64,000 nucleotides of DNA from Bordetella sp. 02P26C-1. Lineage in GTDB: Bacteria; Pseudomonadota; Gammaproteobacteria; Burkholderiales; Burkholderiaceae_B. The stretch's first letter is position 1. The number at the start of each line of letters is the position of its first letter. The stretch spans positions 1-64,000 of the forward strand of contig NZ_WSJB01000012.1 in assembly GCF_009763255.1 (NCBI RefSeq). Reading direction: 5' to 3'. Positions 14,120 through 27,416 of this stretch are shown piece after piece. The notes beneath the pieces were generated by a model. That model was not told where the DNA came from, ran no database searches, and was given only the letters and a program-made list of their open reading frames with translations. Position numbers and translations under genes: made by a program.

Positions 14120-14581
14120 GTGCCCGATATCAATATCTATGAGGCGCTACGGGAAAGCCATGAAATTCAGCGCGCTCTGTGCCGCAGCTTGCTGAACGCG
14201 TCGCCAGAAGGCGACGAGCGCGATGAAATTTTCAAAACATTACGCATCGAGCTGGCCGCGCATGCAGCAGCCGAAGAACGATACTTTTATTCGCCGATGA
14301 TGCTCGACGATATGGGCTTGGACCCCTCGCGCCATGCCATGGCCGAGCATCATGAGATCGACGAGTATGTGGAAGACCTGGCCTCTGCCGAAGCCCGAGG
14401 CGGTAGCTGGTTATCCAAGGCGAAAAAATTGTCCGAGGAGGTCTTTCACCACCTGGACGAAGAAGAAAAGAAATTCTTCCAGATCTCCGGCAGGATTTTG
14501 AACGACGCGCAAAAGGCACGCTTGGCCGAGCAATATTTGCAGGATTACGTTCGCATGAAGCGCGTCCTCTCGGGTGAATAA
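14120..14581 (+). CDS. Hemerythrin HHE cation-binding domain protein
   Basis: The 153-residue protein is a four-helix-bundle hemerythrin-like protein with the expected metal ligands. A first His is in the helix ALRESHEIQRAL, followed by HAAAEERYFY, then HHEIDEYVEDL and HHLDEEEKKFF. Such proteins bind a di-iron centre and are linked to oxygen, nitric oxide or metal stress. The GTG start at 14120 lies 5 nt after AAGGAG; the ATG two bases earlier is in another frame. Its 3' end overlaps the 3' end of the convergent pdeM gene by 37 bp. Confidence 0.88.
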   Translation: MPDINIYEALRESHEIQRALCRSLLNASPEGDERDEIFKTLRIELAAHAAAEERYFYSPMMLDDMGLDPSRHAMAEHHEIDEYVEDLASAEARGGSWLSKAKKLSEEVFHHLDEEEKKFFQISGRILNDAQKARLAEQYLQDYVRMKRVLSGE

Positions 14582-15228
14582 ATCGGGATTGCTTCGTCGT
14601 CGACGCAAGCAATCAGCTGACCGTCTCCCAGGCCTCTTACATCGTAGCCGCCAGTAAACGCGGAAAACGCAGGCAAGACGCTCAGCCCGGGGCGCAGCCA
14701 GAACACCGGCCAACTGCGCGGCACACCGGGCACACGCGCCTGCGGATGCACATGGCCGGCAATAACGTGCCGACCCTCTGTATCCCTGTCGGGCATATGC
14801 TGAAATACAAACGGCCCATCAGCCGCCGCCTCGCCCAAGGCTTCGATATGCAGGTCAGCCCTGCTTAACGCCCGGTCGTGATTCCCTACCAGCGCCGCCA
14901 CCCGCAGCGTGGCGTGAGCGCGTCGCCATCGCATCCAGCTATCTCGCCAGCCCACGCCGGAGGCTGGACCATGCAAGACATCGCCCACGATCCACAACGA
15001 TCCCGCCCCTGTCATCGCCACCAGTGACCCAAGCCGCTGTAAATCGTCTTCCGTCGCGCCACGCGGCACCGCGATGCCCGAGCGTCGGAAAACATGGCCC
15101 TTTCCCAAGTGCAGATCCGCGATCACCAATCTTTCGCGCGCCGGCCAATAAAGCGCGCGTTGACCTAGCAGCACCACAGTTTCACCGGCCAGCGCAAGCG
15201 TTACCGCCTTATCCCGCCACGCGAGCAT
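14545..15228 (-). CDS. pdeM: Ligase-associated metallophosphoesterase PdeM
   Basis: The 227-residue protein belongs to the ligase-associated calcineurin-like phosphoesterases. Metal-binding motifs are visible in order: DLHLGKGH (about residues 40-47), GDVLHG, GNHDR and GHVHP. Characterised relatives are Mn-dependent phosphodiesterases that act in a DNA repair cluster with a helicase, a ligase and an exonuclease, the same neighbours seen here. The ATG at 15228 is preceded by GGAGG. It overlaps the end of the helicase gene by 20 bp. It is the last gene of the repair island and converges with the hemerythrin gene. Confidence 0.9.
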   Translation of the reverse strand: MLAWRDKAVTLALAGETVVLLGQRALYWPARERLVIADLHLGKGHVFRRSGIAVPRGATEDDLQRLGSLVAMTGAGSLWIVGDVLHGPASGVGWRDSWMRWRRAHATLRVAALVGNHDRALSRADLHIEALGEAAADGPFVFQHMPDRDTEGRHVIAGHVHPQARVPGVPRSWPVFWLRPGLSVLPAFSAFTGGYDVRGLGDGQLIACVDDEAIPIYSPERTRFMRT

Positions 15229-17734
15229 AGCGTTCCTCCAGTTGTTTCGCGGCCCGGCGTACGCGATCCTGCCACGACTCCGTACTGAGCTGTCCGCGCA
15301 AGCTCTCGGTCCATAGCGGGAACGACAAGGGCGTGAGCGACGGTGGCTCATGCAGTGCCAAGGTCCGCGCCGCACAGTCGTGCAAGGCTTCTGCCAGACG
15401 GTGCGCTTGTAATTGCACCTCGAACACTTCGCGTTCAGCCTGCGCCAATAACAAGTGGTCAGGATCGTAGCGCCGCAGTACATCGTAAAGCAGGCCGCTG
15501 GAAGCCTGCACTTGCCGCAACGATCGCACTTCACGTCCGGGTAGCGAAGGGGTGAGCAAACCGGCCACGCGTGCGATCTCGCGAAATTGGCGACGTGCCA
15601 TCTCCCCTAGATTCACGCCCGCGCGCAAATCGTCCTCTAAGTGCTCGGGACTGAGCAACCGGCGCAATAACGCATCGTCTAGCGCCGCGGGCGCGGCCAG
15701 CGTCAGCATGAAGCCATAGTCATTGACGGTAAAGGAGAAGGTATTCGGCTGCTCGCGCCCCCAGCGCAAGGCCATCATCGCCGCCATACCCTCATGCACC
15801 GCGCGCCCGGCAAATGGAAAGACAAACAGGTGCATGCCGCGACGTGTATTTATCCGCTCGGCCACCAGCCGCGAGGGATGCGGCAGCGCGCTGGCCGTCT
15901 CTTGAATCCTCAATAGCGGCGCGGCCGTCTGCATTTCGGGATGCTCGCCGGGCTGCGCGAACACGCGCTCGACTTCGCGTCCCAGCTCCGTCGACAGCGG
16001 CATGCGCCCACCCAGCCAAGTCGCCACCGGGCCACCGCCCGATTTGGCGCGTCGCACGTAGGCCGTCATGCCTTCCAGACGCACCAGTTCCAGCGTGCGC
16101 CCGGCGAACTGAAAGCGGTCGCCGGGCCGCAGCCGCGACAGAAAACTTTCCTCCACCGAACCTAACCCGCCACCGCGTAAAAATTTCACCGAGACCGCAC
16201 CGTCGGATGTAATCGTGCCTATGGACAAGCGGTGGCGCAACGCGATGCGCCTGTCATGCACGCGATAGCATCCATCGTCGTCACGCTGGACTCGGCGAAA
16301 CTCCGGGTAGTTGGCCAGCGCGCGTCCGCCTTGTTCAATGAAATCCAAGACCCCGTTCCATGTGTCGCGATCAAGCGCCGCATAAGCGTGGGTTTCGCGC
16401 ACCTCGTCGTAAAGCGCCTGAGCCTCGAAGCCGCCGCCCAGCGCGAGCGTGACAGCGTGCTGCGCCAGCACATCCAGGCAAAGGGTCAATGGCGTGCGCG
16501 ATTCGATTTCACTGCGCGCGATGGCCTGACGGGCGGCGGCATATTCGACCAGTTCCAAAGCCTGTGTCGGGACGCAAATCACATGGCCTGCCGTACCCGG
16601 CCGGTGTTTGGCCCGCCCGGCGCGCTGCAGCATTCGGGCAACCCCTTTCGCGCTGCCGATCTGCAGCACTTGGTCCACCGCTGGAAAGTCCACGCCCAAG
16701 TCCAGGCTGGACGTTGCGACGACACAGCGCAACGTTCCATCGCGCAAGCCCTGCTCGACTTGCGCGCGCAGCTTTGGGTCCAGGGAACCGTGATGCAGTG
16801 CCAAGGTAGCGGGGTCATCCAGCCAGATGGATTCCAACGCCTTATGCCAGAGTTCCGCCTGCGCCCGGGTGTTGGTAAAAAGTAAAGTCGCGCGCACCTT
16901 GAATATGCGCTTGTACACGGTCATCAGTTGCGACAAGCCCAGGTGCCCCGCCCAAGGCAAACCTCGATCGGACTCCGGCAGCAGAGTCGTGAGCGTCACC
17001 TTGCGAGGCTTTACGCCAGAGACCAACGCGCTATCGGGCGCATGCGGCAGCAACACGTCGCGCGCTTGTTCCAGGTTGCCGAGCGTGGCCGACAGGCCCC
17101 ATGTGCGATGCCCGGGCGACAAGCGCCGCAGACGCGCCAGACAAAGTTGCAGCAGCACTCCCCGCTTGTTGCCCAGCAGCTCGTGCCATTCATCCACGAT
17201 GACACATTGCAGCGCGCGAAAGCGCGCGGAGGCATCGGCGTACGACAGCAATAAAGCCAAGGATTCCGGGGTGATGACAAGCACTTCCACCTTGCCTTGG
17301 CGCGCCAGGCGTTTGTCGCGCGCACTCGCATCGCCCGTTCGCAATGCCACGGTCCAGCTCAAACCGGTTTCCTGGACCACCTGTGTCAACGCCTGCGTCG
17401 TGTCGGCGGCCAATGCCCGCAACGGCGTCACCCACAGTACGCGCGGCCCCTGCCCCGCCTCGCGCTTCCTATCCGCCTCGTCTCTGGTGAGCGCCTGCAG
17501 CAAGGGGCCGCCAAACGCCGCCAGCGTCTTGCCGCTACCGGTCGGTGTATGCAACAAGCCGGATTGACCGGCGAGGTAACGTTGCCAGACCTCGCGCTGA
17601 AACGCAGCGGGTTTCCAGCCGCGCGCCGTGAACCAGGCGGCAAGCGACGCATCCCAGGCGGCGGTTGCCGGCGATTCCAGCGAGCCCGACGTGCTGCGGG
17701 ATGTGGCCCGCTCCAGCTTGCCTCTTGCGGTCAT
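15209..17734 (-). CDS. Ligase-associated DEXH-box helicase (Lhr-like)
   Basis: The 841-residue protein is a superfamily-2 helicase of the Lhr-Core type found with bacterial ATP-dependent ligases. It has a Q-motif region (WKPAAFQREVWQRYLAG), Walker A in TPTGSGKTL, a DEWH box (IVDEWHELLG), motif III SATLGN and motif VI QRAGRAKHRPG. The C-terminal half matches the winged-helix and beta-barrel modules of Lhr-Core, a 3'-to-5' ATP-dependent translocase on DNA. It overlaps the ligase gene by 4 bp upstream and pdeM by 20 bp downstream, so the set is translationally coupled. Confidence 0.92.
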   Translation of the reverse strand: MTARGKLERATSRSTSGSLESPATAAWDASLAAWFTARGWKPAAFQREVWQRYLAGQSGLLHTPTGSGKTLAAFGGPLLQALTRDEADRKREAGQGPRVLWVTPLRALAADTTQALTQVVQETGLSWTVALRTGDASARDKRLARQGKVEVLVITPESLALLLSYADASARFRALQCVIVDEWHELLGNKRGVLLQLCLARLRRLSPGHRTWGLSATLGNLEQARDVLLPHAPDSALVSGVKPRKVTLTTLLPESDRGLPWAGHLGLSQLMTVYKRIFKVRATLLFTNTRAQAELWHKALESIWLDDPATLALHHGSLDPKLRAQVEQGLRDGTLRCVVATSSLDLGVDFPAVDQVLQIGSAKGVARMLQRAGRAKHRPGTAGHVICVPTQALELVEYAAARQAIARSEIESRTPLTLCLDVLAQHAVTLALGGGFEAQALYDEVRETHAYAALDRDTWNGVLDFIEQGGRALANYPEFRRVQRDDDGCYRVHDRRIALRHRLSIGTITSDGAVSVKFLRGGGLGSVEESFLSRLRPGDRFQFAGRTLELVRLEGMTAYVRRAKSGGGPVATWLGGRMPLSTELGREVERVFAQPGEHPEMQTAAPLLRIQETASALPHPSRLVAERINTRRGMHLFVFPFAGRAVHEGMAAMMALRWGREQPNTFSFTVNDYGFMLTLAAPAALDDALLRRLLSPEHLEDDLRAGVNLGEMARRQFREIARVAGLLTPSLPGREVRSLRQVQASSGLLYDVLRRYDPDHLLLAQAEREVFEVQLQAHRLAEALHDCAARTLALHEPPSLTPLSFPLWTESLRGQLSTESWQDRVRRAAKQLEERYARVAG

Positions 17735-19335
17735 CGAGCCATGGCCTTGAGCGTATCGAGCCGGTCGGCCTCGGCGGCCGGCTTGTCATGGCGCCAGCGC
17801 AAGATACGAGGAAAGCGCACCGCGACACCGGATTTATGGCGTTTAGAGATATTCACTCCCTCGAATCCCAGCTCGAACACCTGCACTGCATCGACCGAGC
17901 GCACCGGGCCAAACCGCTCGCGCGTATGCGCGCGCACCCAACGGTCCAAGGCGAGAATCTCTTTGTCGTCCAGGCCTGAATATGCCTTTGCCACTGGGAC
18001 CAACGTATCTTCATCCCACACGCCAAATGTGTAGTCCGTATAGAGCGTACTGCGACGGCCATGGCCCGCCTGCGCATACAGCAGCACCGCGTCAATCGTG
18101 AGCGGATCCACTTTCCATTTCCACCAGTCGCCCCGCCTGCGCCCGCCTTGATAGGGGGCACTCGCGCGCTTGAGCATAAAACCCTCGACCCCGCGCGCGC
18201 GCGACTCCTCGCGTAAGCGCGCCGCATCATTCCAATCGGCGGGCCGAACAATGGGCGACAAGCTCAGACGTGGGTCTGGATGGGCACGAAGCAAGGCCTC
18301 CAAACGCTGGCGTCGCTCCAGCTGCGGCAGCTCGCGCAGATCCTCGCCGTTTAACTCTAGCAGATCGTAAACCAGCATGCGCACGGGCGCCTCGGCCAAC
18401 CATTTGGGCCCCGGTTTCAGCCGCTGAATGCGCGTTTGCAAGGCGGAGAACGGCATCGGCGCATCGGCGTCGCCCTGCCAGGCCAGGAGCTCTCCATCCA
18501 ACACACAATCCACGGGCAAAGCTCGCGCGGCGTCTTCGACCTCGGGGAAACGTCCGTCCAGGCGTTCCTCGCCCCGCGACCATAGCGCGACCTCGCCCCG
18601 ACGCCGGATCAACTGCGCGCGGATGCCGTCCCATTTCCATTCCAACATCCATTCATCGATCTCGCCGAGCGTGTGTGCTTCGGCTTCCAGAGGCGAGGCG
18701 AGAAAAAACGGATACGGTTGCTGCCTGTCCTCGGGCAGTTCCTCATCGCTCAACAGCTTGGTCAAGAACTCGGGACTTGGCGCCCAGGTGCCCATCATGC
18801 GCTGCGCGATGCGCGCTATCGGTATGCCCGACATGTCGGCCAGGGCCTGTTGCACCATGCGCTGCGACACGCCCACGCGCAACGACCCGGTCAGCATTTT
18901 GTTGAACACTAAACGTTCATCGAAGGGCAAGCCCAGCCACGCCGATACGATCACTTCGCGGCGCTGCGCCTCGTCGCTATTGGCCACCGGCACCAGCACG
19001 TGCTCGATCCAATCGGCCAGACTGCGCTCGGGTGCGGGGTGTTCGGGATCGGGAATCAAGAGGGCCAAGGTCTCGGCCAGATCGCCCACCTGATCGTAGC
19101 TGGCTTCCACCAGCCAGGTAGGTGTGTTCGAGGCGTCCGCCACCCAGGCACGCATCTCGTCGACGGCTGCGATTTTGCTGCGGGCGCTGGTGATTTTGCC
19201 GCCGGCCAGCAGAAACAGCGCCCAGGCCGCGTCACGAGGCGGCGCGTCACGGAAATACGTGACCAGCGCCGCGCGTTTGTCCAGGGTCGCCGTGGAGCGG
19301 TCCAATTCTTGATAGAGCGCTGCAAATCGCTTCAT
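17731..19335 (-). CDS. ATP-dependent DNA ligase (ligase-associated repair cluster)
   Basis: The 534-residue enzyme has an N-terminal DNA-binding domain (about 1-200), an adenylation domain with nucleotidyl-transfer motif KWDG (in EWKWDGIRAQ, lysine near residue 233), and a C-terminal OB-fold. Further family motifs are visible: CVLDGELLAW, VEGFMLKR and WWKWK. It seals nicks using ATP, unlike the NAD-dependent LigA. Its start lies 3 bp after the exonuclease stop, and its end overlaps the helicase start by 4 bp. The length suits the bacterial LigB/LigC-like group that travels with Lhr, MBL exonuclease and PdeM. Confidence 0.93.
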   Translation of the reverse strand: MKRFAALYQELDRSTATLDKRAALVTYFRDAPPRDAAWALFLLAGGKITSARSKIAAVDEMRAWVADASNTPTWLVEASYDQVGDLAETLALLIPDPEHPAPERSLADWIEHVLVPVANSDEAQRREVIVSAWLGLPFDERLVFNKMLTGSLRVGVSQRMVQQALADMSGIPIARIAQRMMGTWAPSPEFLTKLLSDEELPEDRQQPYPFFLASPLEAEAHTLGEIDEWMLEWKWDGIRAQLIRRRGEVALWSRGEERLDGRFPEVEDAARALPVDCVLDGELLAWQGDADAPMPFSALQTRIQRLKPGPKWLAEAPVRMLVYDLLELNGEDLRELPQLERRQRLEALLRAHPDPRLSLSPIVRPADWNDAARLREESRARGVEGFMLKRASAPYQGGRRRGDWWKWKVDPLTIDAVLLYAQAGHGRRSTLYTDYTFGVWDEDTLVPVAKAYSGLDDKEILALDRWVRAHTRERFGPVRSVDAVQVFELGFEGVNISKRHKSGVAVRFPRILRWRHDKPAAEADRLDTLKAMAR

Positions 19336-19338
19336 ACG

Positions 19339-20355
19339 CTAGATCGTCCCCTCTTCTCCGTCGCCAAACTGGGTCACCAGTGTTTCGGCCATCACGCCGG
19401 CTTCATTTAAGGTGCGGACCAGGGCCTGCGTATCGCCATGCGTGGCGATCACGCGCGACGCGCCGGTTTCCCGAATGGTGCGCAACAAGCCCGGCCAATC
19501 CACATGGTCAGAGACCACAAAGCCGCGATCCATATTGCGTCGCCGCCGGTTGCCGCGCAGACGCATCCATCCCGACGCAAACCCATGCTGCGCCCGGCGA
19601 AACCGGCGCAGCCAGGCGCTGCCCGCCGCGGAAGGCGGTGCGATAATCAGTTCCCCCGCAAACGTCGTACCGCTTTCGCGCTTTGGGGCTTCGATCTCGC
19701 TGACGAGCCGGGTCGGTGGCAGCGTCACGCCCGCCTCGCGGTACACGTCCACGCCGGCCGCGATCGCGCCATGGAGATACACCGGGCGGTCTACGAAAGG
19801 GGCCAGTTCAGCCAGCACGCGTTGCGCTTTACCCAGCGCATAACAATAAAGAATCGCCGCCTCGCCCCGTGCTGCACACTGATCACGCCACTGCACCAAT
19901 TCCCGCGCCACGTCCCGGGTTGACGGCCAGCGATAAATCGGCAAACCGAAGGTTGCCTCGGTGATGAAGGTATCGCAAGGCACGACCTCAAAGGGGCTAC
20001 ATGTCGGGTCAGACTGACGTTTGTAGTCGCCGGACACCACCCATACTTCGCCCTGGACTTCGATACGGACTTGCGCCGATCCCAATACATGGCCTGCGGG
20101 ATGCAATGACACCCGCGCGTCACCCAGGGTAAAGGCCTCGCCATAGTCATGAACCCGATAAGGCTGATCGCCTAAACGCCAGCGCAGAATAGGCAGCCCT
20201 TCGACCGTGGTGTGATAGCAGCCCATGCCGCTGCGCGCATGATCGCTATGACCATGCGTGATCACCGCCGTGTCCACGGGCCGCCATGGATCTACATAGA
20301 ACCGGCCAGCGGGGCAATACAGCCCCTCGGGACGCAACTGCAACAGGTCGGACAT
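19339..20355 (-). CDS. Ligase-associated DNA exonuclease (metallo-beta-lactamase fold)
   Basis: The 338-residue protein has the metallo-beta-lactamase/beta-CASP fold of the SNM1-like exonucleases that occur with ATP-dependent ligases. The HxHxDH metal motif is THGHSDHA near residue 35. Further metal ligands are in HPAGHVLGS, SGDYKRQ and, near the C-terminus, SDHVDW and ATHGD. The ATG at 20355 is preferred because GGAG lies 7 nt upstream; an in-frame ATG at 20367 overlaps that ribosome site. It heads the tightly packed exonuclease-ligase-helicase-phosphoesterase set, about 146 bp after the UdgX-fusion gene. Confidence 0.92.
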   Translation of the reverse strand: MSDLLQLRPEGLYCPAGRFYVDPWRPVDTAVITHGHSDHARSGMGCYHTTVEGLPILRWRLGDQPYRVHDYGEAFTLGDARVSLHPAGHVLGSAQVRIEVQGEVWVVSGDYKRQSDPTCSPFEVVPCDTFITEATFGLPIYRWPSTRDVARELVQWRDQCAARGEAAILYCYALGKAQRVLAELAPFVDRPVYLHGAIAAGVDVYREAGVTLPPTRLVSEIEAPKRESGTTFAGELIIAPPSAAGSAWLRRFRRAQHGFASGWMRLRGNRRRRNMDRGFVVSDHVDWPGLLRTIRETGASRVIATHGDTQALVRTLNEAGVMAETLVTQFGDGEEGTI

Positions 20356-20501
20356 CGAGTTCTCCATGAGCAGACGACTTATCCAAGCCGGACGACTTAG
20401 CGGGTCAAAACTACTTATCCAGGCGCAGACGACTGACCTAGATCGCGCGACAGCTATCTCGTTATACCGCGTACAGCATCGAACGATGATGAGGTTTTTG
20501 C

Positions 20502-22094
20502 CTATGCCGGCCTCTCACCGGCCAGACGCGATGCTTGCTCTACCGCATCGACCATACCCGCGATGACAGCCTCACGCTTGGCTGCATCGTCGACTCGCAG
20601 CGCATAGGAGGGATGCCACGTTGCCACCAGCCACGCCTCGCCCACCCGCTGGGGCCGTCCGCGATACTGCTGCAGGCTGACCTTGCGCCCCAACACCGCA
20701 TTCAGCGCCGTCGCCCCCAGCGTCACAATGACGGCGGGCCGCACTCGTTCGATTTCTTCATGCAGCCAATGCGCGCAGGCATCCACCTCGCGCTGCGCCG
20801 GGGTCTGATGCAGACGTCGTTTGCCCCGCGCGATCCATTTAAAGTGTTTGACCGCGTTGGTGAGGAATAAGGACTCGCGCGCGAACCCCGCGCGGTGCAA
20901 TGTTTCGTTTAGCACTTGACCCGCAGGCCCCACGAACACGCGGCCAGCGAGGTCTTCCTGATCGCCCGGCTGCTCGCCAACCAGCATGATGCGCGCCGAG
21001 TCCGGCCCCTGGCCCGGCACCACATGGGTGGCGTTGCGCCACAGCTCGCATCGCCGGCAGGCCTCCAGGGTCGTTGGCATCGCACGCTGGGGCTGCGCCT
21101 GTTGCGCGTCCATGGCGATTTGCCGCCCCGGCCGTTGGCCCACCGTGCGAGCCTGCCCGACGCGTTGCGCGCCACTGCGGGCGTCGGCGATCATGCCGGG
21201 GATCAGCGGTCCTTCTGGCAGGTTTTTCCAAAAGCGCACGGGCATGCGCTGATGCAGCGCGCTTTCGTTCAATCGCGCGGGGTTGAAAATGCTCTGGTAA
21301 TAGATTTTCCAAAGCGGCTCGATCTGCTCCGCCGCGATGGACGCGCGAATGGCATCGGCATCCACGGGGCCCTCCGATAGCGTGATGTCCTGCCCATCCC
21401 ACAACGCCGCGCCTTGCGGCGTCGCAATACACCAGGACGTGGCCCCCATACGCCGGGCGAAATGCTCCGCACCCCACGCCAACACGTCATGCTCGGGTTC
21501 ATACCAGGCCAGATACTCAGGCCCATCGCCTGCTTCGCGCTGATGAAAACGCACATAGGCCTGCATATCATGTTTAGCGCGCCGCACGGCCTTGGCCATC
21601 GAATGCAAGGCCGCGCCATCCTCGTCCGCCGCCGACACCACTGCACGATCGCCCTGTTCCCACCGCCAAAGCACACGATACAGCAAGCCCCAACGCTGAG
21701 GCGACCGATACAAGGCCGCGTCTTGCAACAAGGTGGCGAGCTCTCGGGAAATGCGAATCTGGGTGGGCGTGCCGGGTGTGGCGGGCTGCACAGTAGCGAT
21801 GCAGACCGCGTCACTGTCGTGGGCGAGATCACAGTCGTGGCCTGCAGCACGGCCGCGCATCCCGTCCGACGATACCGGCTGCGCCGCGTAATCCAGTGAC
21901 ATCTGGGCAGAGCCACTACGCACGCCACTCACCTTTTCCACCCAAGTCACCCGTGACGGCGGCCAGCCCGCCCTCAACGCGCGCAACGCCTGCAAACGCC
22001 ACGCCGCGTAGCCGCCGTTCACCACCAAGGTATGCATATCATCCACGGTCGGGGGCCTCCATTTCTCGTCCATTAAAGGCTGACAGGCCTTCAC
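20502..22094 (-). CDS. TIGR03915-type DNA repair protein fused to UdgX-family uracil-DNA binding protein
   Basis: The 530-residue protein has two parts. Residues of about 20-270 match the TIGR03915 family, a putative DNA repair protein that always pairs with a radical SAM protein. The C-terminal 200 residues are a UdgX-type uracil-DNA glycosylase domain. It includes the Fe-S cysteine cluster (CRRCELW and later cysteines), GEQPGDQEDLAGRVFVGPAG, and the insertion loop GKRRLHQTP, which in UdgX is KRRIH and carries the His that bonds covalently to the abasic sugar. The GTG at 22094 overlaps the radical SAM stop; ATGs at 22073 or 22037 are possible starts. It is co-transcribed with the SOS-headed gene upstream. 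Confidence 0.87.
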   Translation of the reverse strand: MKACQPLMDEKWRPPTVDDMHTLVVNGGYAAWRLQALRALRAGWPPSRVTWVEKVSGVRSGSAQMSLDYAAQPVSSDGMRGRAAGHDCDLAHDSDAVCIATVQPATPGTPTQIRISRELATLLQDAALYRSPQRWGLLYRVLWRWEQGDRAVVSAADEDGAALHSMAKAVRRAKHDMQAYVRFHQREAGDGPEYLAWYEPEHDVLAWGAEHFARRMGATSWCIATPQGAALWDGQDITLSEGPVDADAIRASIAAEQIEPLWKIYYQSIFNPARLNESALHQRMPVRFWKNLPEGPLIPGMIADARSGAQRVGQARTVGQRPGRQIAMDAQQAQPQRAMPTTLEACRRCELWRNATHVVPGQGPDSARIMLVGEQPGDQEDLAGRVFVGPAGQVLNETLHRAGFARESLFLTNAVKHFKWIARGKRRLHQTPAQREVDACAHWLHEEIERVRPAVIVTLGATALNAVLGRKVSLQQYRGRPQRVGEAWLVATWHPSYALRVDDAAKREAVIAGMVDAVEQASRLAGERPA

Positions 22095-23299
22095 AGCAGG
22101 GACAGCTGCTGCGCCGCTTGCGGCGCGAGCGCACGTCGCAAGCGAGCCGATGACGCCTCTCCCAGACCAGGCCGATAGTCTTGCACCGCGATAAACGGCT
22201 TGACCTTGTCCATCGAACAGCGCAGACGGATCAGGTCCTGATAGCGGATGACACGCAGCCGGCGCAGCTCCACCAGCCGCTGGGCATTACGCATGCCTAT
22301 GCCCGGCACCCGGGCGATCAGCCGCAATGGGGCGCGATTCAAATCCACGGGAAATAACTCGCGGTGAGCCAAAGCCCAGGCCAGCTTCGGGTCGATATCC
22401 AGAGGCAGCTCCCCCGCCTCCTGAAATAGCTCGTCGGCCTGAAACCCATACCCTCGCATCAGAAAATCCGCCTGATATAGCCGGTGCTCGCGTAACAACG
22501 GTGGTGGCTGGGCAGGCAAACCAGAGGGGCTGTCGGGAATGGGACTGAAAGCCGAGTAATACACCCGCTTGAGCTGATACGCACCGTACAAGGTCTGCGC
22601 CGTCTGCAGAATCGTGCGGTCATCCGCCTCGTCCGCGCCCACGATCATCTGTGTGCTCTGGCCGGCAGGAACCTTGTTGCGACGTTCTTCCAATGCCTCT
22701 TCGCGCGCCAGTCGGATCACGCCCATCGCCCGCTTGATGGTCGGCGCGCTTTTTTCCGGCGCCAGCCGGCTCAGCCCGCCGTCGGTGGGCAGCTCGATAT
22801 TGACGCTCAGTCTATCGGCATACAGCCCAGCGAGCGTGATCAACTCCGGATCGGCGTCCGGGATGGTCTTTAAATGGATATAGCCCCGAAACCGATGCGT
22901 CTCGCGCAGCGTGCGCGCGACCTCGACCAGCTGCTCCATGGTGTAGTTCGCGCTGCGGATAATGCCCGAGCTGAGAAACAGCCCGTCTATATAGTTGCGT
23001 CGGTAGAAATCCAGCGTCAGATCGACCACTTCGCGGGGACGAAAGCGCGCCCGGGGCACATTGCTCGAACGACGATTCACGCAGTACTGGCAGTCGTACT
23101 GACAGAAATTCGTGAGCAGAATCTTTAGCAGCGAAACGCAGCGCCCGTCTGGCGTGAAGCTATGGCAGATGCCAGCGCCGGTGCTCGCGCCCAGGCCATC
23201 GCGCCCGCGCGAATCCCGCTTCGGTGCACCGCTACTGGCGCATGAGGCGTCGTATTTCGCTGCATCGGCGAGGATTTCGAGTTTGGTCGAGAGTTCCAT
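22091..23299 (-). CDS. Putative DNA repair radical SAM protein (TIGR03916 type)
   Basis: The 402-residue protein has a radical SAM cluster motif CX3CX2C at Cys66, Cys70 and Cys73 (NFCQYDCQYC). Its C-terminal helix-hairpin-helix module (RVPGIGMRNAQRLVELRRL) suggests DNA binding. This is the family annotated as putative DNA modification/repair protein, always beside TIGR03915. The chemistry is not established. The ATG at 23299 begins MELSTKLEILADAAKYDASC, the conserved family start. No Shine-Dalgarno sequence precedes it, and the LexA box ends only 6 bp upstream, so the mRNA may be nearly leaderless. Its stop overlaps the start of the UdgX-fusion gene. Confidence 0.87.
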   Translation of the reverse strand: MELSTKLEILADAAKYDASCASSGAPKRDSRGRDGLGASTGAGICHSFTPDGRCVSLLKILLTNFCQYDCQYCVNRRSSNVPRARFRPREVVDLTLDFYRRNYIDGLFLSSGIIRSANYTMEQLVEVARTLRETHRFRGYIHLKTIPDADPELITLAGLYADRLSVNIELPTDGGLSRLAPEKSAPTIKRAMGVIRLAREEALEERRNKVPAGQSTQMIVGADEADDRTILQTAQTLYGAYQLKRVYYSAFSPIPDSPSGLPAQPPPLLREHRLYQADFLMRGYGFQADELFQEAGELPLDIDPKLAWALAHRELFPVDLNRAPLRLIARVPGIGMRNAQRLVELRRLRVIRYQDLIRLRCSMDKVKPFIAVQDYRPGLGEASSARLRRALAPQAAQQLSLL

Positions 23300-23304
23300 A
23301 TCGA

Positions 23305-23324
23305 TACTGTATATATAACCAGTA
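23305..23324 (-). promoter_or_regulatory. LexA (SOS) box at the head of the DNA repair island
   Basis: TACTGTATATATAACCAGTA keeps both five-base arms TACTG and CAGTA of the E. coli consensus at exactly 10-bp spacing; only the two last spacer bases differ. It lies 6-25 bp upstream of the radical SAM start codon. A bound LexA would block transcription of the radical SAM and UdgX-fusion genes and perhaps the ligase-associated set. Confidence 0.85.
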
Positions 23325-23478
23325 GTATAGCAGCATCGATGTGCGGGCTCCCGCAGATGCGATTGGATCAATTGAAATCACCCATCCGCCATGCTGAGTC
23401 ACGACACGCCCCGAAACTGAATGAAATCAATGCGATACCCTGCCCTCCGATTCACCATCCGTAATGAATGTAAACTTA

Positions 23479-23497: not shown

Positions 23498-23570
23498 GAC
23501 CCGGCTGGTTGCCACCGCCGTCATGATGGCGATGGCGCCCAGTCACCGTCTAGCTGTAGAAGGAAGCCCC

Positions 23571-24500
23571 ATGCGTTTTGCTCCATCATTCCCCGCTCGC
23601 CGCCTGACCACGTTTGCCGCCGCTCTGGTGGCCGGCCTGGCATTCAGCGCCACGACGCTTGCCGCAGAGCGAACCGTGCAAACCGCTTTTGGCGAGGTGA
23701 AAATCGACGGCACCCCCTCCCGCGTGGTGACGCTCGGGGAAAACGCGTTGGACGCGACTGCCTCGCTGGGTTTGAAGCCGGTCGGCGCCCTGGCTAGCCG
23801 TGGTGGTACCGATATCCCCGCCTACCTCAAGGACAAAACCGGCACGATCGCCCTGGTAGGCACCGTGCGTGAGCCCAACCTGGAGGCCATTCTCGCCCAG
23901 CAACCCGACGTGATTCTGGCCGCCACGGGCCTGACCAAGGAAATGTACGAAAAGCTGAGCCTGATCGCTCCGACCGTCGTACCCGTCGGCGACTCCTTCG
24001 CGCCGTGGCAGGACACGCTGCGCAGCTACGCCCAGGCCCTGAACAAGACCGAGGAAGCCGACAAGCGTATCGCCGAGGTTGACGCCCGCATCACCGAGCT
24101 GGCCAAGCGCATGCCCGCCGACACGACGGTCTCGGTCGTACGCTGGAATCCGCAGGGCCCGCAAATCATGTCGAGCCATCTCTTTGTGGGGGCATTGCTG
24201 AAATCGCTGGGCTTGAAACCCAACGCGCTGGCCGAAACCATCAAAGACCGTCCGCACAGCGACATCCTCAGTCTGGAAAACCTGAACAAGGCCGACGGCG
24301 ACTGGATGTTCCTCGCCACTCTGAATCCCGAGGGCAAAAAGGCCCTGGAAGACGCCAGCAAGCAGCCTGCATTCAAACGCCTGAAAGCTGCTCAAGCCGA
24401 TCAAGTCGTCAGCGTCGATGGCCAAATCTGGAGCAGCAGCTCCGGTTATCTGGCCGCTCAACGCATCCTGGACGATGTGGAGAAGACGCTCGCGAAGTAA
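23571..24500 (+). CDS. Iron-siderophore ABC transporter periplasmic binding protein
   Basis: The 309-residue protein belongs to the FepB/FhuD/BtuF-type class III binding proteins. A signal peptide (ARRLTTFAAALVAGLAFSATTLAAE) is cut near residue 32. The mature protein has the two lobes joined by a long helix expected for the family. Motifs include PSRVVTLGENALDATASLGLKP near the N-terminus and QQPDVILAATG. AGAAGGAAG precedes the ATG at 23571. It is the first gene of a four-gene importer (binding protein, two permeases, ATPase) and should deliver a ferric siderophore from a TonB receptor to the inner membrane. A matching receptor could be the one at 56113, but that is only inference. Confidence 0.88.
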   Translation: MRFAPSFPARRLTTFAAALVAGLAFSATTLAAERTVQTAFGEVKIDGTPSRVVTLGENALDATASLGLKPVGALASRGGTDIPAYLKDKTGTIALVGTVREPNLEAILAQQPDVILAATGLTKEMYEKLSLIAPTVVPVGDSFAPWQDTLRSYAQALNKTEEADKRIAEVDARITELAKRMPADTTVSVVRWNPQGPQIMSSHLFVGALLKSLGLKPNALAETIKDRPHSDILSLENLNKADGDWMFLATLNPEGKKALEDASKQPAFKRLKAAQADQVVSVDGQIWSSSSGYLAAQRILDDVEKTLAK

Positions 24501-24510
24501 TGGCGGTGTG

Positions 24511-25515
24511 ATGTCCTCCCCCCGATTTTTCTTGCCCTCCAAGGCACTGGGCCTGTCGGCCCTTTGCCTGATTGTGTTGTGCGTGCTCAGCTTGCTGGTG
24601 GGTGCGGGCGATGTCGGCCCTTGGGCAAGCCTGCAGGCGCTCGTGGGCGGCGGGGACGAAGACGCGCGCTTTACCGTATTCGAATTGCGCGGCACGCGTA
24701 CTGAACTCGCGCTCTTGGTGGGCGCGGCATTAGGCGTAGCGGGCCTCCTGATGCAGTCGGTGACCCGCAACCCCCTGGCCGAGCCGGGCCTGCTGGGGGT
24801 GAGCGCCGGTTCTTCTTTCGCCGTGGTGCTTGCCATTCTGCTGGGCGCTTCGGCCGCGACCACCTACCTGTCGGCCGCCTTTGTCGGGGCCATGGCGGGC
24901 TGCGGCATGGTGATGCTCGTAATGCGCATGCGCGGCGTGGGCGACGATCCCATCCGCCTGGTCCTGGCGGGCGCAGCCTTCACGGGTCTGTTGCAAGCAG
25001 GCAGCAGCATGATTCTGCTGGCGGATCAGCGCACGGCCGATGAGATTCGTTTCTGGGTCGTGGGCGGTGTCGCGGGTCGGCCACTGGAAACGTTTTCCTG
25101 GACCTTGCCGGGGTTGATCCTGGGTCTGTTGATCGCGCTGCCGTTGATACGTCCTTTGGCGGCGCTGGCGCTGGGCGAGCACGTTGCCCGGGGCTTGGGC
25201 CACCACCCTCATCTGGTCCGGTTGGCGACGCTGCTGTCGGTCGCGTTGCTGGTGGGGACGGCGAATGCGGCCGCCGGGCCGATCGCGTTTCTGGGTCTGA
25301 TCGTGCCTTATATTGCGCGCCGCCTGGTTGGCACGGATATCCGCCGGTTGTTGGGCCTGTGTCTCGTACTTGGTCCCTGCGTGTTGCTGTTAGCGGATAT
25401 CGTTTCGCGTCTGATCGTTCGCCCCTATGAACTGCCCGTGGGTGTGCTGACGGCCTTTATTGGCGCGCCGATCTTGATCGCGGTGGTGCGCACGCATCGC
25501 TTACCTACGCTTTGA
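24511..25515 (+). CDS. FecCD-family siderophore ABC transporter permease (first)
   Basis: The 334-residue protein has about nine to ten membrane helices and FecCD family signatures. These include RGTRTELALLVGAALGVAGLLMQ, NPLAEPGLLGVSAG, and GPIAFLGLIVPYIARRLVG, the coupling region that docks on the ATPase. The ATG at 24511 comes 10 bp after the binding-protein stop; a GTG just before it would add one residue. Its stop overlaps the start of the second permease (TGATG), a sign of coupled translation and a heterodimeric channel. Confidence 0.9.
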   Translation: MSSPRFFLPSKALGLSALCLIVLCVLSLLVGAGDVGPWASLQALVGGGDEDARFTVFELRGTRTELALLVGAALGVAGLLMQSVTRNPLAEPGLLGVSAGSSFAVVLAILLGASAATTYLSAAFVGAMAGCGMVMLVMRMRGVGDDPIRLVLAGAAFTGLLQAGSSMILLADQRTADEIRFWVVGGVAGRPLETFSWTLPGLILGLLIALPLIRPLAALALGEHVARGLGHHPHLVRLATLLSVALLVGTANAAAGPIAFLGLIVPYIARRLVGTDIRRLLGLCLVLGPCVLLLADIVSRLIVRPYELPVGVLTAFIGAPILIAVVRTHRLPTL

Positions 25516-26582
25516 TGCCGATGTCCAACGCTGCCTCTGTCTCTCGCCCATCCGGCTATTTGCTGCTGCGTGCCGGGGGGATGTCACTGCTGCTGCACCG
25601 GCGCACGACGTGGGTCTTTATATCGCTGTGCGCCCTGCTCGCCCTGGTGTGCGTGTTTTGCCTGAGCGTGGGCGGCCCGCGGCCCTTGTCATTTGCCGAC
25701 ACCGTGGCGACGCTCTTCGGTAGCGGCACACCCATGCAGCGCCTGCTCATTATGGAACTGCGCGTGCCGCGTATTCTGGCCGGACTCTATAGCGGCGCGG
25801 CGCTGGGCGCGGCAGGCTGCTTGATGCAGACGCTGGCGCGTAACCGCTTGGCCACGCCTGGCATTATCGGGATCGATAGTGGCGCCACGGCATTCGCCGT
25901 CGCCTCCATCGTCGGTCTGGCCACCAGCCTGGCGCCCTCGAGTTTGGCCCTGCCTGGGGCAGCGACGGCTGCGGCGTTGACCTTTTTACTCGCGGCCGGC
26001 GCGGGCGCGCGCGGCTATCGCTTTATCGTGGTCGGGATCGCCGTGGGCGCGATCTTTGGCGCGCTGACGAATTTGATGTTGGCGCGAGCCGCCATCGACG
26101 CGGCGAACGCGGCGTATCCATGGACCGTGGGAAGTCTGAATGCCCGGCCCAAGGCCTCTGTCATGTTGCTGGGCTATAGCCTGCCCGTGCTGCTGATCCT
26201 GAGCCTTTTTCTGACCCGAGGTCTGGCTGCGATGCGCTTCAACGACAGCGTCGCAATCGGTCTGGGGGTGCGGCTGCAAGCCATGCGCATCGGCACGCTC
26301 ATTGTCACCGTGTGTCTGACGGGACTCGCCGTGTCCGTGTGCGGACCGGTCGGTCTGATTGCGCTGATCGCGCCCGAGGCCGCGCGGTATTTGGGCGGTC
26401 AACACGGTGTGCCGGTGCTGAACGCCGCGCTCACGGGCGCGATCCTGACCGTGTTCGCCGACTGGGTCGGCCGCAGCATCCTCGCGCCTATTGAAATTCC
26501 GGTGGGCATTATTCTCGCCATCATCGGTGGCCCCTATCTGCTGTGGATAATCTTGCGCCAATCCGCGCGTAAAAGCCTTTAA
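25515..26582 (+). CDS. FecCD-family siderophore ABC transporter permease (second)
   Basis: The 355-residue partner permease has an N-terminal tail of about 30 residues before its first membrane segment. It carries the same family signatures as its neighbour: RVPRILAGLYSGAALGAAG, NRLATPGIIGIDSG and GPVGLIALIAPEAARYLGG. The ATG at 25515 shares one base with the preceding stop; another ATG in the tail (before SLLLHRR) could be used. The ATPase gene follows after 3 bp. Together they form the inner-membrane channel of the siderophore importer. Confidence 0.9.
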   Translation: MPMSNAASVSRPSGYLLLRAGGMSLLLHRRTTWVFISLCALLALVCVFCLSVGGPRPLSFADTVATLFGSGTPMQRLLIMELRVPRILAGLYSGAALGAAGCLMQTLARNRLATPGIIGIDSGATAFAVASIVGLATSLAPSSLALPGAATAAALTFLLAAGAGARGYRFIVVGIAVGAIFGALTNLMLARAAIDAANAAYPWTVGSLNARPKASVMLLGYSLPVLLILSLFLTRGLAAMRFNDSVAIGLGVRLQAMRIGTLIVTVCLTGLAVSVCGPVGLIALIAPEAARYLGGQHGVPVLNAALTGAILTVFADWVGRSILAPIEIPVGIILAIIGGPYLLWIILRQSARKSL

Positions 26583-26585
26583 GTC

Positions 26586-27416
26586 ATGACCGCCAAGATC
26601 CCTTCCCTGCTGACCGAGTCCGCCCATACCGCCGCTACCCTGGGTACCCAGAACCTGCGCATGGGCTATGGCCAGCGGATCATCATCGAATCGCTGGATC
26701 TAAGCATCCCGCAAGGTCAGGTGACGGCGATCGTGGGGCCTAACGGCTGCGGTAAATCCACACTGCTGGCCGGTCTGTCGCGTCTGCAAAAACCCTTGGG
26801 GGGCGCCGTGCTGCTCAATGGTCAGGCCATCAACTCGTTGCCCAGCCGCGAGGTGGCGCGGCTGTTGGCGTTATTGCCGCAGGACGCGACCGCCCCCGAT
26901 GGGTTGACGGTATCCGAGCTGATCCGTTTCGGTCGCCAGCCGCACCAAGGACTCTTGCGCCAGTGGAGCGAGCACGATCAGGCCGTCGTCCAGGCCGCGC
27001 TTGAGGTCGCGGATCTGGTCGATCTGGCGGATCGCCCGTTGGAATCCATGTCGGGCGGTCAGCGCCAACGCGCTTGGATCGCCATGGCGATTGCGCAAGA
27101 CACGCCGCTGCTGCTGCTCGACGAGCCCACCTCGGCGCTGGATCTGGGGCATCAGATCGAGGTGTTCGAATTGATACGGCAGTTGGCGCAAGCTGGGAAA
27201 ACCGTGGTGATGGTGGTTCATGATCTGTCTAGCGCATGCCGTTACGCTGACCATCTGATCGCCATGAAACAAGGAAAGATCGTGGACCAGGGCCCGCCGG
27301 CGGCCATTGTCACCTCGGACCTCGTCGAAACGCTGTATGGCGTGCGCTGCACGTTGATGCAGGATCCTCACTCCGGCACCCCTGTCATTGCCGGCGTGAG
27401 CCTGGTTAAACGCTAA
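26586..27416 (+). CDS. Iron-siderophore ABC transporter ATP-binding protein
   Basis: The 276-residue ATPase is of the FepC/FecE type. It has Walker A GPNGCGKSTLL (about residues 56-66), Q-loop LLPQDATAPDGLTVSEL, signature SGGQRQRAWIAMA, Walker B LLLLDEPTSALDLGHQ and H-loop MVVHDLSSACRY. It couples ATP hydrolysis to siderophore passage through the two FecCD permeases encoded just upstream. It is the last gene of the operon; a 165-bp gap separates it from the broken exporter gene. Confidence 0.92.
   Translation: MTAKIPSLLTESAHTAATLGTQNLRMGYGQRIIIESLDLSIPQGQVTAIVGPNGCGKSTLLAGLSRLQKPLGGAVLLNGQAINSLPSREVARLLALLPQDATAPDGLTVSELIRFGRQPHQGLLRQWSEHDQAVVQAALEVADLVDLADRPLESMSGGQRQRAWIAMAIAQDTPLLLLDEPTSALDLGHQIEVFELIRQLAQAGKTVVMVVHDLSSACRYADHLIAMKQGKIVDQGPPAAIVTSDLVETLYGVRCTLMQDPHSGTPVIAGVSLVKR

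Follow-up and report, generated by a model that had tools for sequence, protein, structure and literature searches.

A LexA-regulated two-gene operon, COG1573-COG4277, has been described in Bacteroidetes and is cited for Verrucomicrobia and Alphaproteobacteria as well (PMC8565304). Likewise, splB has been reported to be LexA-regulated in alpha- and betaproteobacteria (PMC3323433), and DUF4130, a proposed mutagenesis-related enzyme, has been associated with SplB-like radical SAM proteins and uracil-DNA glycosylases in SOS neighbourhoods (PMC3765255). Here we examine a stretch of 64,000 nucleotides from Bordetella sp. 02P26C-1 (contig NZ_WSJB01000012.1, positions 1 to 64,000; hereafter the window), in which six repair genes lie on the minus strand at 14545-23299. 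They form two modules: module 1 consists of a radical SAM gene (rSAM) and a TIGR03915-UdgX fusion, and module 2 of an exonuclease, a ligase, an Lhr-type helicase and PdeM. Judged from its sequence, module 1 looks like a genuine SOS operon. With moderate confidence, we read the whole run as this SOS module juxtaposed here with a normally independent module 2, into which SOS transcription probably reads through.

Probable LexA control of module 1

The LexA-type operator TACTGTATATATAACCAGTA (23305-23324, minus strand) ends 5 bp ahead of the ATG of rSAM and differs from the LexA box consensus, TACTG(TA)5CAGTA, at 2 of 20 positions. It is the sole match in the window at up to 3 mismatches, 100 shuffles giving 0, and one of four sites at this threshold in the 4,096,267-base genome, where the reversed control gives 0. 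The second of these sites is at imuA and the third at a PA0069-family radical SAM gene (G000:C3:284687-284706, L004), so that two different radical SAM genes are apparently LexA-controlled in this genome. A single lexA scores above cut-off, and GACTGTATATTCATACAGTC, with 4 mismatches, is located just upstream of it; the operator fits the LexA motif of the organism at the module 1 promoter. When a looser pattern, CTGT-N8-ACAG, is sought with one mismatch allowed, the window holds 6 matches against 13.9 expected, no more than chance would give; the signal is carried by the long box. An extended -10-like element, TGCTATACT at 23324-23332, abuts the operator; it matches the consensus by eye and is not listed by the promoter scan.

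The fourth genome site (G000:C3:156717-156736; L003:1501-1520) has 2 mismatches and lies 8 bp before a frame of 100 amino acids that has no NCBIfam match, with a SYLF-domain lipoprotein gene nearby on the other strand. This frame is a possible SOS gene.

The box is conserved upstream of module 1. We scanned 250 bp upstream of rSAM in the 80 named relatives that best match its protein (the named set) and found the box in 80/80, with 1-7 mismatches compared with 8-11 for the reversed control, and at 7-18 bp before the rSAM start in 78 of them. In a draw of genomes from the same family, 25 others have rSAM, and the box precedes the gene in every one of them (control 0/25). Among phylum loci (best 30 of 84), an exact GAAC-N7-GAAC or GTTC-N7-GTTC, which we take to be the alphaproteobacterial LexA motif, was found in 29/30, against 2/30 for a control pattern; at the sole exception in these 30, L147, neither kind of box was found. 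The same pattern occurs as background in 3/25 family loci, so single hits are no proof. A plasmid from Phaeobacter porticola, an alphaproteobacterium, matches one locus of this type, that of genome G314. The box in the family loci and the GAAC/GTTC type in the phylum loci together suggest that module 1 stayed under LexA while the LexA motif itself changed. The LexA box that the original prediction placed at 23305-23324 is thus real, being one of four genome sites and conserved upstream of module 1. Such persistence of the operator over two LexA motifs points to a core SOS role for module 1 across many Pseudomonadota.

The rSAM protein (22091-23299, minus strand) matches TIGR03916 at 545 bits against a cut-off of 343.5, carries CxxxCxxC at C66/C70/C73, and has its closest named relative in Bordetella genomosp. 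13 (87%). Its C-terminus contains a helix-hairpin-helix stretch that scores slightly under the Pfam HHH_3 cut-off. An alignment of 31 TIGR03916 proteins also shows no variation at C20, C45, H46 and C54, outside the CxxxCxxC motif, and hints at a second metal site. The protein gave no match to TIGR04070, the model of spore photoproduct lyase; TIGR03916 is its only match at E 0.001. A comparison of TIGR03916 with solved structures returned only weak helix-hairpin-helix and other fragments (E 0.018 or worse), and for the TIGR03915 part the same comparison gave no matching chain at E 0.01. Our search of the open-licence literature found no paper on TIGR03916 and one each on DUF4130 and COG4277.

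The fusion gene (20502-22094, minus strand) encodes TIGR03915 (DUF4130) followed by UdgX (TIGR03914), at 179 and 251 bits, respectively. If it begins at GTG 22094, it overlaps the rSAM stop by 4 bp (GTGA); the alternative start, ATG 22037, leaves a gap of 53 bp. The 4-bp overlap recurs in script-picked fusion frames of the relatives L008, L034, L048 and L073. The UdgX domain has the GEQPG motif A, the HPS motif B and a KRRxH loop (KRRLH here) with the equivalents of R107 and H109. The capture histidine is aligned in 83 of 84 long-fusion rows (window included, some loci twice). The exception, L165 (G354), has an apparently disrupted fusion frame beside a full-length rSAM frame. We considered and rejected the idea that sister islands had lost the capture residue: L177, L178 and others keep the histidine in the alignment, and only neighbouring residues differ.

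TIGR03915 stands beside rSAM in 79/80 named loci; the remaining stretch ends 146 bp past rSAM. A UdgX domain was not found in the stretch examined in 52 of these 79 loci, nearly all from Pseudomonas or close kin. The conserved core of module 1 is therefore rSAM plus TIGR03915, and the frequent absence of UdgX points to uracil capture as an accessory function. The UdgX-type uracil capture that had been predicted for this locus is plausible by the motifs of the fusion, and it is not the core of module 1.

Module 2, the junction and linkage

Downstream on this strand lies module 2, made up of a TIGR04122 ligase-associated MBL/beta-CASP-like exonuclease (19339-20355), a TIGR04120 cisplatin damage response ATP-dependent DNA ligase (17731-19335), a TIGR04121 Lhr-type DEXH helicase (15209-17734; Pfam WH_Lhr) and a TIGR04123 PdeM/MPE-type endonuclease (14545-15228). 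These four adjacent genes make up the ligase-associated set, and all six proteins of the run score above the curated cut-offs of their NCBIfam models. The repair genes, their order and their strand are as predicted. Solved structures similar to the module 2 proteins are CPSF73-type and related beta-CASP nucleases for the exonuclease (best E 3.5e-11), the nuclease MPE for PdeM (2e-31) and chain 5v9x for the helicase (4e-60). Exonuclease and ligase are separated by a 3-bp gap, ligase and helicase overlap by 4 bp (ATGA), and helicase and PdeM overlap by 20 bp. The overlaps of 4, 4 and 20 bp and the 3-bp gap had been predicted correctly; the gap between the modules, given earlier as 147 bp, is 146 bp (20356-20501, minus strand, between UdgX and the exonuclease) with the exonuclease start set at 20355. 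Divergent from rSAM, siderophore-type ABC transporter genes occupy 23523-27416, collinear with the same-genus genome G081.

No LexA box was found directly upstream of the exonuclease, where the best site in 20301-20700 has 10/20 mismatches; a second box in the junction is ruled out by the same score. A beta/gamma-type box precedes the exonuclease in 3/30 family loci (best 30 of 57), all of one genus, and in 0/29 phylum loci (best 30 of 117, one too short being dropped), and a GAAC/GTTC-type box in 0/30 and 1/29, respectively. A simple scan of the junction found neither a sigma-70-like promoter nor, on either strand, a terminator-like site. An imperfect 37-nt direct repeat (20360-20396 and 20415-20451, 70% alike) lies mostly within the junction, and a search of the genome for further junction copies returned just one 21-nt match (E 0.5).

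We regarded the modules as linked when they lay within 10 kb on one contig, as judged by eye from coordinate tables. Many genomes are drafts, and pairs split by a contig end were counted as unlinked. The counts are not corrected for relatedness, and the locus sets partly coincide (L102 and L010 probably belong to one genome; L177-L180, L184, L185 and L187 duplicate loci under other numbers). The family draw (200 genomes) contains 26 genomes with rSAM, 57 with the exonuclease above cut-off and 19 with both, of which three are linked (the window, G068 and G176); without the window this is 2/18, both in one genus. The phylum draw (398 genomes) contains 84 with rSAM, 117 with the exonuclease and 70 with both, and linkage is seen in 4/69 when the window is excluded (G413, G314, G422 and G540). 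In total, six of 87 other two-module genomes are linked, compared with 0.4 expected from a uniform-position model with round genome sizes (P ~3e-6, relatedness ignored). Module-2 genes were found at 2/80 named loci, L008 and L048 (stretch of up to 10 kb per side), and a class draw has rSAM in 9/303 genomes, window included. Conserved linkage of the two modules, which the original prediction named as a check, did not appear in this survey, and a conserved six-gene operon is rejected, as most two-module genomes do not show the linkage (6/87). Listings of open-licence papers gave no description of the two-module linkage.

The modules do tend to occur in the same genomes. The exonuclease is present in 70/84 rSAM-positive vs 47/314 rSAM-negative genomes of the phylum draw and in 19/26 vs 38/174 of the family draw, both uncorrected for relatedness.

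The linked loci differ in what lies between the modules. L177 (G176) and L178 (G068) have the gene order of the window, with an antisense GntR-like gene, whose NCBIfam matches fall below cut-off, between UdgX and the exonuclease. A search at E 1e-40 found no such gene in the genome of the window and found it in 4/7 genomes searched. In Bordetella genomosp. 13 (L008) the junction is ~7 kb long and holds a similar GntR-like gene and several unrelated metabolic genes, named by eye from their translations. L187 (G540) has the six genes in the order of the window, with ~5.5 kb between the modules, including an opposite-strand frame. L184 (G413) carries rSAM-UdgX-exonuclease-ligase behind a single GTTC-N7-GTTC box, with UdgX and exonuclease joined by a TGATG stop/start; helicase and PdeM were not found in the stretch examined. 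The Pseudomonas metagenome-assembled genome L048 has exonuclease-ligase-helicase-PdeM, then the operator, then rSAM-TIGR03915, all on the same strand and with no UdgX domain. With the operator between the modules, module 2 is not under it there. L186 (G422) has its helicase ahead of rSAM, both on one strand, and an exonuclease that faces away. The 218-kb Phaeobacter porticola plasmid NZ_CP016365.1 has the genes of both modules, with rSAM and exonuclease 3.3 kb apart, MATE transporter and dehydrogenase genes between the modules and the exonuclease on the opposite strand. Among Phaeobacter plasmid records, 58 have a relative of rSAM and 58, perhaps not all the same ones, have a relative of the exonuclease. 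The rSAM promoter faces module 2 in six of the nine linked loci (the window, L008, L177, L178, L184 and L187), and an uninterrupted run from rSAM into module 2 is confined to the window and L184.

How the six-gene run may have arisen and work

A LexA box of its own is rare for module 2, linkage is rare and the junctions differ, so that the six-gene run looks like a secondary juxtaposition. Of the nine same-genus genomes in the family draw (window included), rSAM is present in two and the exonuclease in four. In G081, which is without rSAM, module 2 has the window's neighbours on one side, the hemerythrin gene and the adjoining frame. On the other side the siderophore operon stands 19 kb away, with other genes where the window has rSAM-UdgX. 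Another genome of the genus, G015, has both modules, on different contigs. The exonuclease tree puts the window among genomes of its genus and apart from L008, L177 and L178, at support (87/93 and 87/96) short of the strict threshold. The simplest reading of these sequences is that module 2 was already in place in this lineage when rSAM-UdgX came to lie beside it.

We propose that DNA damage would activate RecA and lead to cleavage of LexA, upon which rSAM and the TIGR03915-UdgX protein would be made. The two most likely act jointly, their targets being damaged or uracil-bearing bases. Judged from its conserved motifs and from published work on UdgX, the UdgX domain would trap the abasic site covalently via its loop histidine. 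Module 2 would be a normally independent exonuclease/helicase/endonuclease/ligase repair set. Since it follows on the same strand after a junction of 146 bp, read-through is probable. SOS transcripts from the LexA promoter probably cross the junction and boost module 2 after damage, on top of any basal promoter. LexA binding, read-through and any substrate that the two modules might share are predictions from the sequences compared.

Several observations weigh against this account. The rSAM tree gives no resolution around the window, and the direction of change may instead be a loss in G081. The scan that found no promoter in the junction found none upstream of rSAM either, so module 2 may have a promoter of its own. 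The exonuclease upstream sequences of six relatives gave no convincing alignment to the junction. Finally, the unrelated repair gene Ku lies within 10 kb of rSAM in 1/54 Ku-bearing genomes (G550; 80 searched), which is not significantly different from the 4/66 found for linkage of the modules (Fisher 0.38).

The Ku comparison would also suit a plain adjacency, produced by deletion or insertion and involving no shared transcription or function. The variable inter-module content (146 bp, ~1 kb or ~7 kb depending on lineage, and other genes in G081) and the exonuclease tree, which separates the window from other linked loci at its sub-threshold support, argue in the same direction. Conversely, linkage exceeds uniform placement, and the window shows one strand and a short junction; we consider plain adjacency unlikely. 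About equally improbable is the original prediction that the six genes are one dedicated SOS operon serving a single lesion-processing pathway. This reading gains from the strand, from the short junction that shows no terminator-like site in the simple scan, from the excess of linkage and the co-occurrence of the modules, from the translational coupling in L184, and from L048, where six genes form one same-strand run, though in a different order and without the UdgX domain. However, 81/87 two-module genomes, many of them drafts, do not have the modules within 10 kb on one contig, and module-2 genes occur at just 2/80 named loci in the stretch examined. Moreover, the L048 operator sits between the modules, the exonuclease is on the opposite strand in G314 and G422, and the junctions of L177 and L178 hold an antisense GntR-like gene. 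What stands of that prediction is the conserved box of module 1 and the plausibility of UdgX-type capture; a conserved six-gene SOS unit finds no support.

Two further proposals give the modules a common task. The modules, usually apart, may repeatedly converge because SOS timing helps module 2, with SOS-made module 1 proteins marking damaged bases or capping them covalently and module 2 excising the stretch so capped and resealing it, an idea that we find quite doubtful. UdgX might also form its own covalent protein-DNA adduct, which module 2 would remove before resealing the strand. The near-universal capture histidine of the fusions would agree with this, as would the naming of module 2 for DNA damage and cisplatin response, although these are names only. 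The 52/79 named module-1 loci in which no UdgX domain was found, and the 47/314 rSAM-negative genomes that have module 2 without module 1, make this proposal very improbable. Partial SOS wiring of module 2 remains the likeliest reading, with the joint pathway and plain adjacency as roughly equal rivals. If read-through does take place, the window would offer a natural case of SOS wiring of the cisplatin/ligase-associated repair set, and an entry point to asking what TIGR03916 and TIGR03915 do.

Relation to described systems

Within the COG1573-COG4277 pair, we take COG4277 to correspond to the TIGR03916 partner. The pair shares with module 1 a uracil-DNA glycosylase-type gene and LexA control, predicted or shown (PMC8565304). 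It differs from the locus in the window, where the host is a relative of Bordetella, UdgX is fused to TIGR03915, and module 2 comes next, with no change of strand. In the case of splB, a radical SAM-type repair gene and LexA control over two LexA motifs are common to both systems (PMC3323433). Unlike splB, however, the rSAM of the window matches only TIGR03916 at a threshold of E 0.001, and not TIGR04070, and the PA0069-family radical SAM gene of this genome is the likelier splB equivalent.

The UdgX domain corresponds to Mycobacterium smegmatis UdgX (PDB 6ajo among others), scoring 166 bits across residues 324-502 of the fusion protein (numbered from ATG 22037). GEQPG, KRRxH with the nucleophilic histidine and HPS are shared with that enzyme (PMC10359453), whereas the UdgX of the window is fused behind TIGR03915. 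UdgX-type capture by the fusion protein is therefore a plausible assignment. The DUF4130 neighbourhoods show the same domain association as the window (PMC3765255). The exonuclease-ligase-helicase-PdeM order of module 2 also occurs on Paracoccus aminophilus and Ideonella dechloratans plasmids, and the copy in the window differs in lying directly downstream of a LexA-headed rSAM-UdgX pair. The conservation of module 1 agrees with, and extends, the published LexA control of COG1573-COG4277 and of splB. Module 1 looks like a well-conserved SOS operon of a known kind, and module 2 is its uncommon but recurrent neighbour.

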